Shown here: positions 2,910 to 48,318 of the stretch, one piece after another | How the letters are laid out: the number at the start of each line of letters is the position of its first letter | How positions within the stretch are numbered: position 1 is the stretch's first letter | Source of the DNA: Deltaproteobacteria bacterium RIFCSPLOWO2_12_FULL_60_19 | Lineage (GTDB): Bacteria > Desulfobacterota > Binatia > UBA9968 | Assembly: GCA_001798595.1 (NCBI GenBank) | Contig: MGSS01000149.1 | Location: 1 to 51,484, forward strand | Length of the DNA: 51,484 nucleotides | Direction: 5' to 3' | Translations under genes and position numbers: made by a program | The notes under the pieces: model-generated | The model's database searches: none | What the model was told of the DNA's origin: nothing | What the model saw: only the letters and a program-made list of their open reading frames with translations

Positions 2910-3185
2910 ATGAGCCGGAACATGACAGACAGGCCGGACTTTTTGTGGGATGAGCCGCTCAATCGAGGGGATCTCAAGAAAGTTTTGGCCGGCGAAGACG
3001 AGGAAGAAAGCCTCTATTACGCGGCTAAGATTTTAAGAGAGGCGCGGTTCGAGGAGGTCTGGGAGTATCTCTCCCCGGCCTTTCTCGCCTCTCACTGGGA
3101 AAGGCTTCGAGCGAGACTCGGACGAAAAAAAGGCTTCTGGGAATTTCTCTACAGCACATGGCGCGCACATGGCCTTATCCACTAA
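2910..3185 (+). CDS. Hypothetical protein, probable antitoxin partner of the next gene
   Basis: A 91-residue, strongly charged, mostly helical protein with no motif I can name with certainty. Features: an acidic N-terminal half (DRPDFLWDEPLNRGDLKKVL, GEDEEES) and a C-terminal segment LGRKKGFWEFLYSTWRAHG. It overlaps the downstream nucleotidyltransferase gene by 17 bases, which implies translational coupling. In many genomes the AbiEii/AbiGii-type nucleotidyltransferase follows a small gene of this size that acts as its antitoxin, so the role is inferred from context only. Confidence 0.6.
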   Translation: MSRNMTDRPDFLWDEPLNRGDLKKVLAGEDEEESLYYAAKILREARFEEVWEYLSPAFLASHWERLRARLGRKKGFWEFLYSTWRAHGLIH

Positions 3186-3834
3186 AGATATCCTTTCCGC
3201 TCTCCAGTGGGATTTTCTGTCTTTATTTTTTCATGGCGCGCCGCCTTTTTTTTTAACCGGCGGGACGGCCCTCAGCGCGTTTTATCTCCAGCACCGTTAT
3301 TCCGAAGACCTCGATCTCTTCACCTTGGACGGTGACGCGTTCGACCGCGTGCCGTTCTATGTGGCGGACACGGCCGCAAGGTTGACGGCCTCCGTCGCCT
3401 CGCTCCAGACCGCGCCTCAGTTCCGCCGTTACAAGCTTTCCCGGAAAGGGGAGTCGGTCATCGTGGACTTCGTGAGAGAGGTAGTCCCGCAGGTATCCGC
3501 GGAAAAGAACCGATTCGACGGGATCGTCGTGGATACGTTGGATGAAATTGCGACCAATAAGGTTTGCACCGTCGTCAGCCGTGCGGAGGTCAAAGATTAT
3601 ATCGACCTCTACTTCCTTGCACGCGCCGGATATCCGTTGGAAAACTATATCGAGGCCGCGCAACGGAAGGATGCGGGAGTGTCCCAAGCGACGCTGGCAT
3701 ACCTCCTGTCCGAGTTCAGGTTATCCAAGGTCCCCGATTTTATGATCGCCCGGATTTCTCCTGCGGAGGTTCAGGGATATTTTGAGTCTCTTGCCAGGAA
3801 GCTTGCCGTGGAGTCGTTCCCGAAAGGCGAATAG
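3169..3834 (+). CDS. AbiEii/AbiGii-type nucleotidyltransferase (toxin)
   Basis: A 221-residue protein of the AbiEii/AbiGii (DUF1814) nucleotidyltransferase family. The signature FFLTGGTALSAFYL followed by RYSEDLDLFT contains the GG of the nucleotide loop and the two metal-binding Asp residues (DLD). A third acid is in ESVIVDFVREV, and a conserved Lys plus DYIDLYFL follow. Family members act as toxins that transfer nucleotides to targets such as tRNA, or in abortive phage infection. No ribosome binding site is obvious before the ATG at 3169, so translation probably depends on the overlapping upstream gene. Length is normal and motifs are intact. Confidence 0.8.
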   Translation: MALSTKDILSALQWDFLSLFFHGAPPFFLTGGTALSAFYLQHRYSEDLDLFTLDGDAFDRVPFYVADTAARLTASVASLQTAPQFRRYKLSRKGESVIVDFVREVVPQVSAEKNRFDGIVVDTLDEIATNKVCTVVSRAEVKDYIDLYFLARAGYPLENYIEAAQRKDAGVSQATLAYLLSEFRLSKVPDFMIARISPAEVQGYFESLARKLAVESFPKGE

Positions 3835-6350: not shown

Positions 6351-7019
6351 ATGAGCGAGAGGCCGTTTTTTCGACAGCCGTGGGTTTGGGTGACGGCGGC
6401 GGTTCTCGCCGCAAGCGCGGCGGGGATCGGGCTTTGGGCGCGCCAGGCGCTGCGATCGAGACAGGGTACGAGCGACGAGCGACCGCTCGAAGGGATGCAG
6501 CGCTTCGGCGCTGTCCCTGACTTTTCCTTCACGGAGCGGAGCGGCCGTGAAGTCCGTCTGGCCGAGCTCTTGGAGAAGGTGTGGGTTGCGGACTTCATCT
6601 ACACCAACTGCCCCGACACCTGCCCGCTCCAGACCGCGCAGATGAAATCGCTGCACGACGAGTTCGCGGCGGAAAACGATCTTCGTTTCGTCTCGATCAC
6701 GGTGGATCCGGCGCGGGACACGCCGCCGGCGCTCTTGGAGTACGCGGTTCGTTTCAAAGCCGATCCGCAACGCTGGCTCTTTCTGACCGGCGACAAAGAG
6801 ACGATCTACGAGCTGGCGCAGGAGGGGTTCCACCTCGCCGTGGCCGAGCTTCCGCAACAAAGTAACAGGGAGCCGTCCGCCGCCACGCATGCGCACAGCC
6901 CGCGTTTCGTGCTGATCGACCGTAAGGCGCAGATTCGCGGCTATTACCAGGCCATGGACAAGCAAGTCGTGGCGCGCCTAAGGCGGGACCTGAAAAACCT
7001 TTTACGAAGCGGCGAGTGA
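6351..7019 (+). CDS. SCO1/SenC family copper-binding thioredoxin-fold protein
   Basis: A 222-residue SCO family protein, anchored by one N-terminal membrane helix (WVWVTAAVLAASAAGIGLWA) with the thioredoxin-fold domain outside. The copper-binding CxxxC is in FIYTNCPDTCPLQT and the distal His in HSPRFVLIDRK; the SCO signature VSITVDPARDTP is present. SCO proteins deliver copper to the CuA site of cytochrome oxidase or act as thiol reductases. The next gene is a cation exporter of the CDF family, so the pair may share a metal-homeostasis role. No oxidase genes lie in the window. Confidence 0.92.
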   Translation: MSERPFFRQPWVWVTAAVLAASAAGIGLWARQALRSRQGTSDERPLEGMQRFGAVPDFSFTERSGREVRLAELLEKVWVADFIYTNCPDTCPLQTAQMKSLHDEFAAENDLRFVSITVDPARDTPPALLEYAVRFKADPQRWLFLTGDKETIYELAQEGFHLAVAELPQQSNREPSAATHAHSPRFVLIDRKAQIRGYYQAMDKQVVARLRRDLKNLLRSGE

Positions 7020-24558: not shown

Positions 24559-25656
24559 GTGGCGATGCTGCTGGTCCTAACACTCCTCTTCTGGCTTTGC
24601 GCCGCTCCCGTCGTTGCCGCCGAGGCGGAAGGATGGAAAAGCGAGTGGGCGAGGACGGTCGAGGCGGCGAAGAAAGAGGGGCAGCTTGCGGCGTATGGCG
24701 GAGCGGAGATCAGCCACCCGGATATTATCGCTGCGTTCACCAAAGAATATCCTGAGATCAAAGTCACCAACGTCACGGGAAGGGCGTCGGACGTGACGGC
24801 GCGCATTCTGGCCGAGCGGCGCGCGGAAAAATATCTGGCCGACGTGATCGCCAGCGGGCCGAACGCTCCGCGGACGCTCTATCTGGCAAAAGCCCTCGAC
24901 CCGATCGCTCCCGCGATGATCCTGCGGGAGGTCACGGACCAATCGAAATGGTACGGCGGCAAGCACTGGTACGCCGATCCCGAGCACAAGCACATCCTGA
25001 TATTCGAAGGCTCCGTCGCCACCACGGGGCTCGCCGTCAACACCAAACTCATGAGCCCGAACGAGATCGCCTCTTACTGGGATCTCGCGCAGCCGAAATG
25101 GAAAGGGAAGCTCCTAGCGATGGACCCGCGCGGCGCGGCGCTGCCCACGCCGGTTTTGATGCTCTACTACGATCCGGACGTCGGGCCCGAGTATTTGAAG
25201 ACGCTGCTCGGCAAGATGGACATCACGCTGTTCCGCGACCGAGCCCAGGGAACCAACTGGCTTGGCGTGGGGAAATTCCCGGTTTGTTTTTACTGCCGCG
25301 ATCTCGATCTCGCGCAGAAGCAGGGGCTGCCGATCGCCGAGGTGCCGCCGGCGCAGATGAAAGAGGGCGGAACGATCGGCGGCGGGAGCAGCAGCGTGCT
25401 CGCGCTCGTCAACCGCGCGCCTCATCCCAACGCGGCGCGTGTCTTTATCAACTGGTATCTCTCGCGCCAGGGGCAGATGGTCTGGCAGAGGGTGATGAAC
25501 GCAAAAGAAGTGGAGCCGTCGGACTCCATGCGGATCGATATTCCAAAAGACGACGTCCTGCCCGAAGCGCGGCGCGCCGACGGGCGGAAATACCGGGTGG
25601 TGGGTTTCCTCGATCCCGCGCCGTTGCAACAGCTTCTTAAAGAAGTCTTAAAGTAG
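24559..25656 (+). CDS. Extracellular solute-binding protein, Fe(III)-type (family 1), copy 1
   Basis: A 365-residue periplasmic binding protein of the iron(III)/polyamine type. Signal peptide MLLVLTLLFWLCAAPVVAAE. The mature start (WARTVEAAKKEGQLAAYGG) and SYWDLAQPKWKGKLLAMDPR are family hallmarks. GTG at 24559 lies five bases after AAGGAG and is preferred to the ATG six bases later. A Cys pair (VCFYCRD) is unusual for this family and recurs in the paralogue at 26652. The downstream gene encodes a leaderless NMT1-like protein, and the two-gene unit is repeated immediately after. No permease gene is present, and iron specificity is not implied. Confidence 0.88.
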   Translation: MAMLLVLTLLFWLCAAPVVAAEAEGWKSEWARTVEAAKKEGQLAAYGGAEISHPDIIAAFTKEYPEIKVTNVTGRASDVTARILAERRAEKYLADVIASGPNAPRTLYLAKALDPIAPAMILREVTDQSKWYGGKHWYADPEHKHILIFEGSVATTGLAVNTKLMSPNEIASYWDLAQPKWKGKLLAMDPRGAALPTPVLMLYYDPDVGPEYLKTLLGKMDITLFRDRAQGTNWLGVGKFPVCFYCRDLDLAQKQGLPIAEVPPAQMKEGGTIGGGSSSVLALVNRAPHPNAARVFINWYLSRQGQMVWQRVMNAKEVEPSDSMRIDIPKDDVLPEARRADGRKYRVVGFLDPAPLQQLLKEVLK

Positions 25657-25666
25657 GAGGAACCGC

Positions 25667-26632
25667 ATGTCCGAACCCGAAAGATACGCCCCCATCGAAA
25701 TTCGCGGTTTCTTCCGGTCTCACACCCATTTGCCGATCTGGGAAGTGATCGAGCAGGCGGGCATCTGGAAGCAGCTCGGCATGAAAGTGAGCTTCGAGTT
25801 TTGCGACAGCTCCAATATCGCGGAGGCGGCGCTGTTCAGCGGCGAAGTCGATTTCGTCTCCGGCAATCACATCACGCCTTACGCGCTGGTTGCGCGCGGC
25901 AAGCCGATCGTTTGTCTCGCCTCGCCTTCCAACAGCGTGAACGACAAGCTGGTCTCGCGCGAGCCGGTCAAATCGGTCGCCGATCTGCGCAGCGCGCGGA
26001 TCGCCGACACGACGCTGCTCGATCCGGCGGGCGGCTACCATCACCTGCGCGGCAACCACATGCTCTACGTCATGCGCGGTGGACTCCGTCTGGACGAGGT
26101 GCAATGGGTGGAGCTTACGGACAGCATGGCGGTGTTTCGCACGGCGCAGCTGGAGGCGCTCAAGGCGGGTAGGGCGGATGCGACGTTCGTCACCGGCAGC
26201 ACGGAGAAGTATGAGCAGGCGGGATTTAAAGTCCTCGATATCGAGCCGCTGCCGATGATCACCGGCCCGACGCTGACCAGCACCCTGGCGAACTTAAAAC
26301 GCAAAGAGCGCCTCGGCGAGCGGCTGGTCAAGGCGCTGGTCCTGGGCATTCACTTCGCGCGCACGCGGCGGCAGGAGACCGAGCGCATTCTGGAAGGACT
26401 CAAGCGGAGAGAGCCGCTGACCGGCCGGGTGAGCTACAACAGCGTCGCCAAACTCCTGCCCAAGCCCTACCCGGATTATCAGGCGATCGCCAACGCCTAC
26501 ACGCTATGCTGCTTGAAAGATGCTACCGCGAAGGAGACAGGCCCCATCGCCCTCTGGGATTTGCATTATCTACGCGAGCTGGACGACTCGGGCTTCATCG
26601 ATGGACTTTACGATCAGAGGCGCGAGGCGTAA
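25667..26632 (+). CDS. Leaderless NMT1/THI5-like binding-fold protein, copy 1
   Basis: A 321-residue protein with the periplasmic-binding fold pattern (IEIRGFFRSHTHLPIWEVIE, then QAGIWKQLGMKVSFEFCDSS; later SVADLRSARIADTTLL), but it begins directly with the mature-type domain and has no signal peptide. It is therefore probably cytoplasmic. A GGAGG is close to the ATG and the gene starts ten bases after the iron-type binding protein gene. The paralogue at 27976 is about two-thirds identical by eye. Leaderless members of this fold include THI5-type HMP synthases and 4,5-dihydroxyphthalate-decarboxylase-like enzymes, so an enzymatic role is possible. Confidence 0.8.
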   Translation: MSEPERYAPIEIRGFFRSHTHLPIWEVIEQAGIWKQLGMKVSFEFCDSSNIAEAALFSGEVDFVSGNHITPYALVARGKPIVCLASPSNSVNDKLVSREPVKSVADLRSARIADTTLLDPAGGYHHLRGNHMLYVMRGGLRLDEVQWVELTDSMAVFRTAQLEALKAGRADATFVTGSTEKYEQAGFKVLDIEPLPMITGPTLTSTLANLKRKERLGERLVKALVLGIHFARTRRQETERILEGLKRREPLTGRVSYNSVAKLLPKPYPDYQAIANAYTLCCLKDATAKETGPIALWDLHYLRELDDSGFIDGLYDQRREA

Positions 26633-26651
26633 GCCGCAACGAGGAGACCTT

Positions 26652-27776
26652 ATGAAGCAGATGACGACGTTGGCGGCGGCAGTTTTGGCCTTCGTTGTGT
26701 CGTGGAGCAGGGCGGAGGCAGCCGAGGCGAAGCCCGGCGCCGCGTGGGAGGGAGTGGTGGCGGCGGCGAAAAAGGAGGGGGAGGTGAGGCTCTGGGGCGA
26801 CATGGAGATCACCCACCCGGACATCGTCGCCGTCTTCACCAAAGAATTTCCCTTCATCAAGGCGGTGCTCGTCAGCGGCCGGGTCGGCGATCTGATGCCG
26901 CGCATCACCGCCGAGCGCCGGGCGGGCAGATATCTGGCCGACATTTACAGCGGCGGTCTGGGTGGCCGGGCCTTCTTCGATTTTCAGCGCTCCGGCATGC
27001 TCGATCCGCTGAAGCCCGTGCTCATGCTGCCCGATGTCGTCGACGAATCGAAATGGCAGAACAGCAGACACCACTACGCCGACGGCGAGGGGCGATACGT
27101 TTTCATGTTCGAGGGGAGCGTCGCCGGCGTGGGGCTGTACTACAATTCCAAACTGTTCGATCCGAAGGAGTTCCGCTCTTACTGGGACCTGTTGAATCCG
27201 AAGTGGAGGGGAAAGATCGCGCTGTTCGAGCGGCCGGGGACGGGCTCACCGAACATGGTGCGATTCTATTACAATCCGCAGCTCGGACCGGAGTTCGTGC
27301 GGCGGCTGTGGAGCGAAATGGATCTGGTCGTGTCGAAAGAGCGGCGCCAGGCGACCGACTGGCTCGGCAGCGGCAAGTTCGTTCTCTGCATCGACTGCGC
27401 CGACACCGACGCCGCGAGGAAACAAGGGGTCCCGGTCGAAGAGTTCGACCGCGCCTATCTCAAGGAGGCCGGCGGCGAGATCAGCACCAGCGGCAACAGC
27501 GGTCTGGCGCTGATGAACCGCGCGCCGAATCCCAACGCGGCCAGAGTCGCGATCAACTGGTTCCTGTCGCGCCAGGGGCAGATGGCCTGGCAGGAGGCGA
27601 TGAACAAGAAGGTCGTCGAGCCTTCGGACTCGATGCGGATCGATATTCCCAAAGACAACGTTCTTTCCTCCGCGCGCCGCGAGGAGGGGCGGAAATATTC
27701 GGTAAGCGGTTTTCAGGACCCCGATCCGGTGGCGAAGCTGATTCAGGAGATTCGAGCGAAAACAAGTAGGCAGTAA
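26652..27776 (+). CDS. Extracellular solute-binding protein, Fe(III)-type (family 1), copy 2
   Basis: A 374-residue paralogue of the gene at 24559, roughly half identical by eye. Signal peptide MTTLAAAVLAFVVSWSRAEA. Shared blocks include HPDIVAVFTKEFPFIKAV, AERRAGRYLADI, SYWDLLNPKWRGKIALFE, the C-terminal EPSDSMRIDIPKDNVL and a Cys pair (LCIDCAD) at the same place as in copy 1. The ATG at 26652 follows GAGGAG; an open extension upstream overlaps the preceding gene. It is 19 bases after the first leaderless gene, so the module order (exported binding protein, leaderless protein) repeats. Confidence 0.88.
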   Translation: MKQMTTLAAAVLAFVVSWSRAEAAEAKPGAAWEGVVAAAKKEGEVRLWGDMEITHPDIVAVFTKEFPFIKAVLVSGRVGDLMPRITAERRAGRYLADIYSGGLGGRAFFDFQRSGMLDPLKPVLMLPDVVDESKWQNSRHHYADGEGRYVFMFEGSVAGVGLYYNSKLFDPKEFRSYWDLLNPKWRGKIALFERPGTGSPNMVRFYYNPQLGPEFVRRLWSEMDLVVSKERRQATDWLGSGKFVLCIDCADTDAARKQGVPVEEFDRAYLKEAGGEISTSGNSGLALMNRAPNPNAARVAINWFLSRQGQMAWQEAMNKKVVEPSDSMRIDIPKDNVLSSARREEGRKYSVSGFQDPDPVAKLIQEIRAKTSRQ

Positions 27777-27810
27777 GCAGTAAACAGCGAGCAGAGCGCA
27801 TGGCGCAGAA

Positions 27811-27955
27811 TGCAAAGTGCAAAATGCAAAGTGCAAAATGAAGAAGGCTACAGGCAGTAGGGGGCGCGATTCATCGCGCCCGTATGAGCTTTTCAGTCCT
27901 CAGGGTTCCGTTTTGAGTTAGTCAATCCAAAATCTAAAATCCAAAATTGAAAGAG
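27811..27955. repeat. Intergenic repeat cluster (TGCAAAGTGCAAAA words, GGGCGCGAT palindrome, AATCCAAAAT words)
   Basis: Two tandem copies of TGCAAAGTGCAAAA at 27811-27838 share a 16-base word with 4315-4330. At 27862-27881 GGGCGCGAT-TC-ATCGCGCCC is a perfect nine-base inverted repeat, a dispersed element I have seen between genes of many unrelated bacteria. AATCCAAAATCTAAAATCCA-like words follow at about 27925-27948. The cluster sits in the 199-base gap between the two halves of the duplicated module. Confidence 0.6.
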
Positions 27956-27975
27956 GCAAGGGCCGAGGAGAGGTT

Positions 27976-28923
27976 ATGGCAGACTACCAGCCAATCGAGA
28001 TTCGCGGATTTTTTCGCTCTCACACCCATTTGCCGATCTGGGAAGTGATCGAGCAGGCGGGCATCTGGAAGCAGCTGGGGATCAAAGCGAGCTTCGACTA
28101 CTGCGACAGCTCGAGCATCGCGGAAGCGGCGCTGTTCGATGGCAGCGTCGATTTCGTCTCGGGAAACCACATCAGCCCTTACGGCCTGGTCGCCAAGGGA
28201 AGACCGATCGTGTCGCTCGCCTCGCCAAGCAACAGCGTCAACGACAAGCTGATCTCGCGCGCGCCGATAAAACACGCGAGCGAGCTGCGGGGAAAACGGC
28301 TGGCCGATACCACGGTGACGGACAAGGGCGGAGGTTACAACCACATCCGCGGCAATCACATGCTCTATGTGCTGAAAGCCGGGTTGAAGCTGGAAGACGT
28401 CAAATGGGTCGAGATCGCCGACATCATGTCGGAGAGCTTTCGCGTGGAGCAAGTCGCGGCGGTGAGGGAAGGGAAAGCGGACGCCACGATGGTGACCGGC
28501 GGAACGGAGAAATTTGAAAAAGAGGGTTTTCACGTCCTTGAGCTCGGACGGCTCCCGATGGTCAACGGCCCGACGCTCACGTCAACCCTGACCAATCTCA
28601 AGCGCAAAGAGCGCCTCGCCGAGCGTCTCGTCAAAGCTCTGGTCCTGGGCATCCATTACGCGCGGGCGCATCGCGCGGAGACCGAGCGCATTCTCGACGG
28701 ATTGCGGCAACGGGTGCCGGAGGCGAACGCGACCTACAATAGCGTCGCCAAACTCCTGCCCAAGCCCTACCCGGATTATCAGGCGATCGCCAACGCCTAC
28801 GAGCTTTGCTGCATGAAAGATCCCAAAGCGAAAGAGCTTAGCCCGCTCGCGCTCTGGGACCTGCACTATCTGCGCGAGCTGGACGACTCCGGCTTCATCG
28901 ACCGGCTCTACGCAGACCGTTGA
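27976..28923 (+). CDS. Leaderless NMT1/THI5-like binding-fold protein, copy 2
   Basis: A 315-residue paralogue of the protein at 25667, again without a signal peptide. Two stretches are nearly invariant at DNA level: about 60 bases coding SHTHLPIWEVIEQAGIWKQL, and about 60 bases coding SVAKLLPKPYPDYQAIANAY. The rest has diverged moderately, so those stretches are under strong constraint or have been homogenised by gene conversion. Conserved CC (ELCCMKD here, TLCCLKD in copy 1) near the C-terminus is notable. GAGGAGAGG precedes the ATG. It ends the run that starts with the racemase-like gene. Confidence 0.8.
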   Translation: MADYQPIEIRGFFRSHTHLPIWEVIEQAGIWKQLGIKASFDYCDSSSIAEAALFDGSVDFVSGNHISPYGLVAKGRPIVSLASPSNSVNDKLISRAPIKHASELRGKRLADTTVTDKGGGYNHIRGNHMLYVLKAGLKLEDVKWVEIADIMSESFRVEQVAAVREGKADATMVTGGTEKFEKEGFHVLELGRLPMVNGPTLTSTLTNLKRKERLAERLVKALVLGIHYARAHRAETERILDGLRQRVPEANATYNSVAKLLPKPYPDYQAIANAYELCCMKDPKAKELSPLALWDLHYLRELDDSGFIDRLYADR

Positions 28924-47572: not shown

Positions 47573-47713
47573 CTAGCGGCGATGGCGATGGGGCCAATAC
47601 CCGTAATGGCGGAATTCTTTCACGGCGTTTTTATCGACGACGACACAGGCGCCGAGAGTAGCCAAAAACCCCGCCATCAAAACCACCGCTAAAATCTTCT
47701 TCGCCTTTTTCAT
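47573..47713 (-). CDS. 46-residue lipoprotein
   Basis: A very short gene: ATG at 47713 with GAGGAGGG about eight bases upstream, 46 codons and TAG at 47573. The product has a basic start (MKKAKKILAV), a hydrophobic core (VLMAGFLATLGAC) with a lipobox Cys, and a tail of about 23 residues rich in Tyr, His, Trp and Arg (EFRHYGYWPHRHRR). Entericidin-like and other tiny lipoproteins share this design, but no family is recognised. Ribosome binding site, signal and stop all fit, so it is likely real. It lies in the otherwise gene-free gap next to the rhodanese gene. Confidence 0.65.
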   Translation of the reverse strand: MKKAKKILAVVLMAGFLATLGACVVVDKNAVKEFRHYGYWPHRHRR

Positions 47714-47856: not shown

Positions 47857-48318
47857 TTAAGCGCCGCGGTCTATGGGATAACCCTTCTCGATCCAGCCGG
47901 GGAGGCCTTCGTAGAGGACCTTCATGTTGCGATAGCTTTTCTGGTGGAGGATGCCGTAGGCCAAACTGGCCAGGTGATGGGGACAAGCTCAATAGAAGAC
48001 GACCGACCGGTCCTTCGGAATCTCGGCCAGCCGCTTAGCCATGTCGCCTAGGGGGATGGAGACGGAGCCCGTGATGTGGCCCTCCTGGTATTCTCCGGCG
48101 CTGCGCACGTCGACGATAAGCGGTTTTTCCCCGGCGCGAATCTCCTCCACTAACTCGTTCAAATGGATAAACTCCGGCTCCACGCCCTGGGGCAATTTCT
48201 GCTGCGCGTATTGCGGATACCGGCTAGGGTCGGCTAACGACACGGCCGGTTGAAAGGCAGCGCTAAGGAGAAGAATGGTCGAGGCGAGGAGGTTTTTTGT
48301 CGTCATTCCAAGCTTCAC
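47857..48318 (-). CDS. Exported rhodanese-like protein with in-frame TGA at the catalytic Cys (candidate selenoprotein)
   Basis: GTG at 48318 (AAGGGAA upstream) starts a signal peptide (KNLLASTILLLSAAFQPAVS) and a rhodanese domain (LIVDVRSAGEYQEGHITGSV, then SIPLGDMAKRL). At residue 110, inside VVFY-TGA-ACPHHLASLAYGIL, TGA (47989-47991) stands where rhodaneses have the sulfur-accepting Cys. The same frame stays open for 43 further codons to TAA at 47857 and encodes the normal rhodanese end (VLYEGLPGWIEKGYPIDRGA). Read through, the protein has 153 residues, the usual length. Selenocysteine insertion would give an active selenoenzyme in the periplasm; otherwise it is a pseudogene with a single nonsense change from TGC/TGT. 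Confidence 0.75.
47954..47974 (-). promoter_or_regulatory. Candidate bacterial SECIS stem-loop
   Basis: On the message, 14 bases after the TGA, CCTGGCC-AGTTT-GGCCTACGG can fold: four G-C pairs next to the loop, then a U-A and two C-G pairs with single-base bulges. The apical loop starts 22 bases after the TGA and has G in its second position followed by T, which agrees with the known rules for bacterial SECIS elements (distance of roughly 16-37 bases, a G among the first two loop bases). The stem is short, so this is suggestive only. Confidence 0.45.

Follow-up and report, generated by a model that had tools for sequence, protein, structure and literature searches.

A predicted exported rhodanese-fold selenoprotein with a Sec-x-Cys loop in a Binatia genome and its relatives

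The rhodanese gene and its features

The stretch of DNA analyzed here in full, which we call the window, comprises 51,484 nucleotides of contig MGSS01000149.1 from Deltaproteobacteria bacterium RIFCSPLOWO2_12_FULL_60_19. It carries a rhodanese gene on the minus strand (48318-47857) that runs from a GTG at 48318 (an ATG at 48306 is a possible alternative start) to a TAA at 47859-47857 and encodes 153 residues when its single in-frame TGA, at 47991-47989, is read through. The original prediction that one TGA interrupts a rhodanese-like frame, which then runs on for 43 codons, was borne out by the minus-strand translation: the TGA is residue 110 within VVFY-U-ACPHH (YUACPHH, where U is selenocysteine, Sec), and the 43 codons that follow end in GLPGWIEKGYPIDRGA. 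A plus-strand gene at 47857-48318 was rejected, the stretch not being a gene on that strand. The minus strand, a second conserved cysteine, a constrained hairpin and, in relatives, neighboring VKOR and SCO1 genes go beyond that prediction. The features are as follows.

47857..48318, minus strand: coding sequence of the predicted exported U-x-C rhodanese, 153 residues with the TGA read as Sec (reading frame, Pfam match, orthologues)
48232..48318, minus strand: signal-peptide-like N terminus, residues 1-29 (hydrophobic core LLASTILLLSAA, relatives)
47887..48150, minus strand: rhodanese domain PF00581, residues 57-144 (Pfam score, predicted fold)
47989..47991, minus strand: TGA codon, predicted Sec110, at the catalytic position (frame, orthologue alignment, solved rhodaneses)
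47983..47985, minus strand: codon of Cys112, the invariant cysteine that completes the U-x-C pair (orthologue alignment)
47959..47971, minus strand: SECIS-like hairpin GGCCA-GUU-UGGCC, loop 22 nt past the UGA (synonymous constraint, bSECIS model)
6351..7019, plus strand: SCO1/SenC homologue on the same contig; in most orthologue loci, a relative of this gene lies two genes upstream of the rhodanese

The N terminus is of the signal-peptide type, with the hydrophobic core LLASTILLLSAA reaching a mean hydropathy of 2.2 and an end point placed by the conserved ADPSKYPE that opens the mature part in relatives, and the protein is predicted to be exported. The Pfam Rhodanese profile spans the TGA, scoring 63.4 bits over residues 57 to 144 (cut-off, 22.2; 58.4 bits in the scan of the genome). 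When the protein was modeled with AlphaFold from 23 aligned sequences, the best of five models reached a mean pLDDT of 84.7, with values above 90 across most of the mature domain, and the worst reached 50.0. The predicted structure places residue 110 right after a strand (residues 106 to 109) and ahead of a helix (residues 115 to 126); its matches from Foldseek and VIA-align were rhodaneses, with Z values of up to 16.6 (105 residues, 1.6 A). Residue 110 aligns with a cysteine of solved rhodaneses that we take to be the catalytic one, in keeping with the earlier claim that the TGA occupies the sulfur-accepting position. On the basis of the profile score above the cut-off and the predicted rhodanese fold, we assign the protein to PF00581. 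Classical rhodaneses display the pattern CxxGxR in the active-site loop; this pattern is absent from the loop of the U-x-C proteins, which read UACPHH, UACPRH or UQCPRH. Its absence limits any claim of classical sulfurtransferase activity but not the assignment of the fold.

Conservation of the TGA codon

We searched 148 genomes of the class, 147 of which gave some rhodanese match, and recovered clear orthologues at 50 to 68% identity in 22 genomes besides the host, all of the same order. Each of these 22 has exactly one TGA, always at the same codon, which is therefore TGA in 23/23 genes once the window gene is counted. It is followed by A or Q, an invariant Cys (Cys112, 23/23 genes), Pro, His or Arg, and a His (His115) that is likewise invariant among the orthologues. 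Of 395 genomes sampled across the phylum, 342 had some match; the best further one, in genome G035, is 53% identical over residues 74-150 and reads YUACPHF at the loop. This genome has tRNA-Sec and selA, and it was the sole member of its class. The other TGA-bearing homologues sought to evaluate the prediction were thus found in all 22 order orthologues and in G035.

Alignment with cysteine-containing homologues, likewise proposed at the outset, revealed Cys at the Sec position in a WOR-3 protein (L026, YCACPHH) and in L154 (YCACPHH) and L146 (YCACPPG). In the WOR-3 genome, the best tRNA-Sec candidate scores 45.6 against a cut-off of 47 and no selA match was obtained. A single-protein search of genome contigs gave 52 pattern matches, one of which is a relative (that from WOR-3), and a profile search of viral contigs gave 11 pattern matches with no relative among them.

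Coding constraint and a SECIS-like hairpin past the TGA

Over 231 orthologue pairs (22 rows, with the damaged L144 left out), the summed pN/pS is 0.33/0.69 before the TGA and 0.18/0.60 after it. In the 28 pairs usable for the ratio, the omega medians are 0.24 upstream and 0.29 downstream of the TGA, both well under 1. These values indicate that the protein past the TGA is under purifying selection, and the downstream decay of homologues that would have spoken for a broken gene was not found.

Superimposed on this is a constraint at the nucleotide level. Codons +1, +3 and +4 vary freely at their synonymous sites, but such sites are nearly frozen at codons +6 to +10 (CTG GCC AGT YTG GCC), where identity beyond expectation is 0.57, the top value of 106 windows compared (median, 0.09). 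These codons form GGCCA-GUY-UGGCC, a hairpin whose five pairs are all formed in G035 and in 21 of the 23 genes; one pair is lost in each of L138 and L141, and the WOR-3 Cys gene has only two. When the 23 genes were recoded synonymously 2000 times, the number of complete hairpins averaged 1.9 and never exceeded 7, against the 21 observed. According to the available part of a recent selenoprotein catalogue (PMC13188914), the bSECIS model comprises a loop of 3-9 nt with G in the first two bases, a stem of 4-16 bp, a distance of 16-37 nt from the UGA, and a minimum free energy at or below -7.5. The window hairpin, with a loop of 3 nt, G first, a stem of 5 bp, a spacing of 22 nt and an energy of -10.8 for 45 nt, lies within all four constraints.

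Across the 24 TGA genes, the minimum free energy ranges from -8.7 to -16.9, and in five of them (L129, L132, L138, L139 and L141) the minimum-energy structure differs from the 5-bp hairpin. Compared with synonymous recodings, folding energy gave a weak signal (mean z of -1.29 over the 24 genes), and the stability of the single 62-nt stretch was not unusual (z of 0.07). The hairpin displayed no two-sided compensating change, all shuffles scoring as high for covariation. A lower stem (7-10/37-40), in which only 78% of cells pair, is not claimed, and an Rfam search of the window returned no family at the gathering threshold.

This evidence bears on the possibility that a nonsense change, whether a mutation or a sequencing error, truncated an ordinary rhodanese at its catalytic codon. 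A lone TGA would look alike in that case, and two copies are imperfect: the orthologue of G520 (L144) is missing part of the 3' end present in its close relative G521 (L131), which is either a real deletion or an assembly fault, and the upstream half of the G035 gene is not open in one frame in its assembly. However, the recurrence of TGA at this codon in all 23 order genes makes a read error untenable, and purifying selection past the TGA and a hairpin under synonymous constraint argue against decay. We therefore reject both a pseudogene and a sequencing error, to which we accord a very slight chance.

Selenocysteine machinery and genetic code of the host

The host assembly (4.19 Mb in 162 contigs, 97.1% complete, 2.95% contaminated) encodes a single tRNA-Sec that passes the gathering threshold (76.6 versus 47 bits; anticodon TCA), and selA (604 bits), selB (380 bits) and selD (383 bits) lie side by side on contig C142. 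The genes of the Sec pathway on whose presence the original prediction depended are thus all there. Host SelD itself has a TGA, reading KAAGUAAK, which fits the SelD motif UxxK given in the available part of the catalogue (PMC13188914). The composition of the window resembles that of the sel-bearing contigs (G+C, 0.60; tetranucleotide r, 0.98), a weak check given that L161, from another genome of the family, reaches an r of 0.96.

Within the order, 25 of 35 genomes have a tRNA-Sec over the cut-off, including 17 of the 23 gene-bearing genomes and 8 of the 12 others; this association is not significant (Fisher p, 0.71), and copresence alone thus proves nothing. Five of the six gene-bearing genomes in which no tRNA-Sec was found carry selA over the cut-off. 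The exception is G507 (93% complete, 670 contigs), in which the gene is present and neither tRNA-Sec nor selA exceeds the cut-off. Likewise, neither is over the cut-off in G198, a genome of the same family that is 100% complete and has no orthologue.

A non-Sec amino acid could also be inserted at the UGA, by a reassigned code or plain read-through, either of which would give the same frame. However, TGA terminates 5 of the 13 Pfam-supported genes of the window (one, MFS-like, just below the Pfam cut-off), and the code is thus not reassigned; reassignment was rejected on this ground. With selA, selB, selD and tRNA-Sec present and a SECIS-type constraint in place, we consider the probability of a non-Sec reading negligible. 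Because the same codon is UGA in all orthologues found in the order, a SECIS-type hairpin follows it, the machinery genes are present, and coding is conserved past it, we hold it as close to certain that the UGA encodes Sec. The gene is almost certainly a whole selenoprotein gene rather than a pseudogene, and the earlier preference for a Sec gene over a one-base nonsense mutation is supported by the sel genes, the lack of decay past the TGA and the orthologue TGAs alike.

Relationship to known rhodanese selenoproteins

Rhodanese selenoproteins are already known. The available part of the catalogue (PMC13188914, 2026) gives five forms, UxxS, UxxG, CxU, UxxG and UxxxxU; it assigns proteins that share a domain to separate subfamilies when their Sec motifs differ and describes the functions of these proteins as mostly unclear. 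The U-x-C arrangement is absent from the five catalogued forms, and UxC is given there, in the same part, for other families only: the thioredoxin-like Sec.2 and the SO_0444 Cu/Zn efflux transporter share the Sec-x-Cys spacing but belong to other protein families. Forms 1, 2 and 4 resemble the window protein as PF00581 proteins with one Sec and differ by their listed motifs (UxxS/UxxG, as given in that part) from the U-A/Q-C-P found here in 23/23 genes.

Form 3 (rhodanese_LYCAU, NF041203) is likewise a single rhodanese domain with Sec in the same catalytic loop and uses the same two positions, but in the order C-x-U, the mirror image of the U-x-C seen here in 23/23 genes. It is the best NCBIfam match of the window protein and falls on a separate branch of the tree; membership was rejected by the score (50.3 bits versus a cut-off of 115) and by the Sec/Cys order. 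Four other U-x-C proteins score 47-60 against this model, and C-x-U and U-x-U domains cut to the matched part score 59-110, likewise below 115, making the cut-off alone a weak test. Form 5 (TsoB, NF045694) also has a rhodanese domain with Sec but is a large DsbD-like fusion with two Sec residues, and membership was rejected by score (36.1 versus 805 bits). Escherichia coli PspE is, according to the available text of PMC2593051, an exported periplasmic single-domain rhodanese; it differs in having one catalytic Cys and no Sec, and membership in its model, PRK10287, was rejected at 29 versus 102 bits. No model cut-off of NCBIfam release 20 was passed by the window protein (matches up to E 0.001).

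We did not recognize a UxC rhodanese in the literature searched, outside of which lies Haft and Tolstoy 2025, nor in the available parts of PMC9312934, PMC2398784, PMC1088965, PMC1794560 and PMC8318568; the main text of PMC12013277 does not mention rhodanese. In their available parts, PMC9312934 gives rhodaneses with CxU or no motif and PMC2398784 has rhodanese rows without a motif, and these motif-less rows leave room for an unrecognized UxC.

To place the U-x-C proteins, we assembled 93 rows, which are best or TGA-bearing matches and not a census. Besides 22 UxC rows, they display the loops C-x-U (14), U-x-U (1, from G119), C-x-C (5), C-x-x-x-x-U (22) and C-x-x-x-x-C (15), other Cys loops (11), or none (3). 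In a tree of these rows, from which the window gene and G035 were left out (118 columns, midpoint rooting, long branches), the 22 UxC rows cluster together (96/90) and group next with four CxC proteins (98/90), the CxU rows standing apart from them (98/82). This topology is no more than suggestive of separate captures of Sec, at position 1 and at position 3, by a C-x-C loop. In a 68-row tree that also included the window gene and G035, and from which 27 of the 37 CxxxxC/CxxxxU rows had been removed, UxC is again one group (88/84), and it remains so without L026 (98/95). Without L154, UxC is not one group (2 changes), and the WOR-3 protein L026 lies in or beside UxC; its shifting placement may be compatible with a single UxC origin or with reversion to Cys in WOR-3.

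The U-x-U row (G119, L041:1501-1809) has two Sec codons in the rhodanese loop, LYUTUPDE, in a genome whose tRNA-Sec exceeds the cut-off (65.2 bits); this pattern is absent from the rhodanese forms in the available part of the catalogue (PMC13188914). A further set of rhodaneses from various genomes carries Sec five residues past the catalytic Cys (YCxGxxU, e.g., CQGFRUVLS and CGGPTUGMS): L030, L032, L034, L036, L048, L057-L064, L067, L069, L072-L076, L079, L083 and L085. Many of these belong to long frames that stay open for about 440-500 aa, and some, with U-x-x-S, may correspond to form 1 as listed in that part of the catalogue.

Gene neighborhoods

Of the 22 orthologue loci, 20 have as their immediate upstream neighbor, in the same orientation, a gene for VKOR, a quinone-linked disulfide-forming membrane enzyme (tblastn; a Pfam check on two loci gave 93 and 89 bits). 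For 17 of these 20, the VKOR stop and an in-frame ATG of the rhodanese overlap by 4 or 1 nt, an arrangement suggestive of translational coupling. SCO1/SenC lies ahead of VKOR in 18 of the 22 loci (checked with Pfam in two). The contigs of L125 and L139 end before the SCO1 position; L132 has SCO1 and no VKOR match, and L124 has neither. CtaG/Cox11 occurs upstream in L142 (94 bits), and similarity to parts of that protein was seen in other loci.

The window copy lies between a possible MFS gene (30.4 bits, cut-off 33.4) and a gene for a TctC receptor, and neither VKOR nor SCO1 was found beside it. The only VKOR of the host is on contig C55, has a CPHC motif in its C-terminal part, and reaches base 186; no SCO1 match was obtained on that contig. 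The module of VKOR, SCO1 and rhodanese seems to be dispersed in the host, with the sequence after VKOR lying past the contig end. A VKOR/SCO1 partner by gene adjacency is thus seen in the relatives and not in the window itself.

Predicted function

Taken as a whole, the explanation that we favor with high confidence is a periplasmic rhodanese-fold selenoprotein, probably with a Sec110/Cys112 redox pair. SelB and Sec-tRNA would decode the UGA as selenocysteine, and the protein would be exported and its signal peptide removed. Sec110 could then attack a disulfide, a persulfide or another sulfur electrophile, and Cys112 could resolve the adduct via a Sec110-Cys112 selenenylsulfide. The protein would thus act not so much as a classical one-Cys sulfurtransferase but mainly as a two-electron thiol/selenol oxidoreductase or persulfide reductase. 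A dithiol-type redox role is, on balance, the function that we consider probable.

Its main rival is classical sulfur transfer by a genuine selenoprotein, with Sec110 carrying sulfane sulfur (of the Sec-S-SH type) and Cys112 having no redox role. The rhodanese fold and the Sec at the sulfur-accepting position are consistent with this, as is the occurrence of persulfide reductases and persulfide dioxygenase fusions among the nearest structures. However, the invariance of Cys112 in 23/23 genes and the loop UACPHH, which departs from the CxxGxR of ordinary rhodaneses (e.g., CAVGSR in other rows), render this rival unlikely, if still of some weight.

Returning to the dithiol-type redox protein, in the relatives the neighboring VKOR would likely be its partner and SCO1 possibly so. 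PspE is reportedly linked to disulfide formation without DsbA, in the title of a 2012 study by Chng, which provides a precedent, by title, for a periplasmic rhodanese in this process. The available part of a review (PMC5403849) describes VKOR as a functional equivalent of DsbB. Partnership with VKOR/SCO1 nevertheless remains a tentative proposal. The same neighborhoods could also point to a copper-site chaperone, in which the U-x-C pair and a conserved His would bind or reduce copper during oxidase assembly with SCO1 and Cox11. Compatible with such a role are the invariant His115, the CtaG/Cox11 gene of L142 and the presence of SCO1 nearby in 18 of the 22 orthologue loci and additionally in L132; the fold, though, is that of a rhodanese and metal binding is putative, and we give this proposal a slim chance.

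A wider reading, offered as speculative, would combine these strands: a rhodanese would have been retooled as a selenium-dependent periplasmic dithiol-type oxidoreductase, with the Cys-x-Cys loop capturing Sec in separate lineages (U-x-C here, C-x-U in LYCAU and U-x-U in G119) and the U-x-C branch, translationally coupled to VKOR, acting in disulfide exchange in SCO1-dependent copper-site assembly. If true, selenium would be part of the apparatus by which respiratory oxidases are built or exported proteins oxidized.

The orthologous group adds a Sec motif beyond the five catalogued rhodanese forms, and ordinary gene calling, which stops at the catalytic codon, leaves the group truncated or missed. 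Its neighborhoods link a rhodanese selenoprotein to VKOR and SCO1, giving it a concrete setting. One fold with Sec at loop position 1, position 3 or both, along with Cys-only relatives, also amounts to a natural experiment in which the value of selenium at the attacking versus the resolving atom could be measured.

Other features of the window

Just downstream of the rhodanese gene, an ORF on the minus strand (47573-47713), read by eye, encodes a lipoprotein-like product of 46 residues (MKKAKKILAVVLMAGFLATLGAC...). One copy of a 65-nt inverted repeat (48453-48517/36171-36235, 94% complementary) lies just upstream of the rhodanese gene. The region 25366-28912 displays a tandem-like duplication with four direct-repeat families that are 73-85% identical at a spacing of about 2.1-2.3 kb. 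On the plus strand, 3169-3834 encodes an AbiEii nucleotidyltransferase of the type IV toxin-antitoxin family (65.9 bits).
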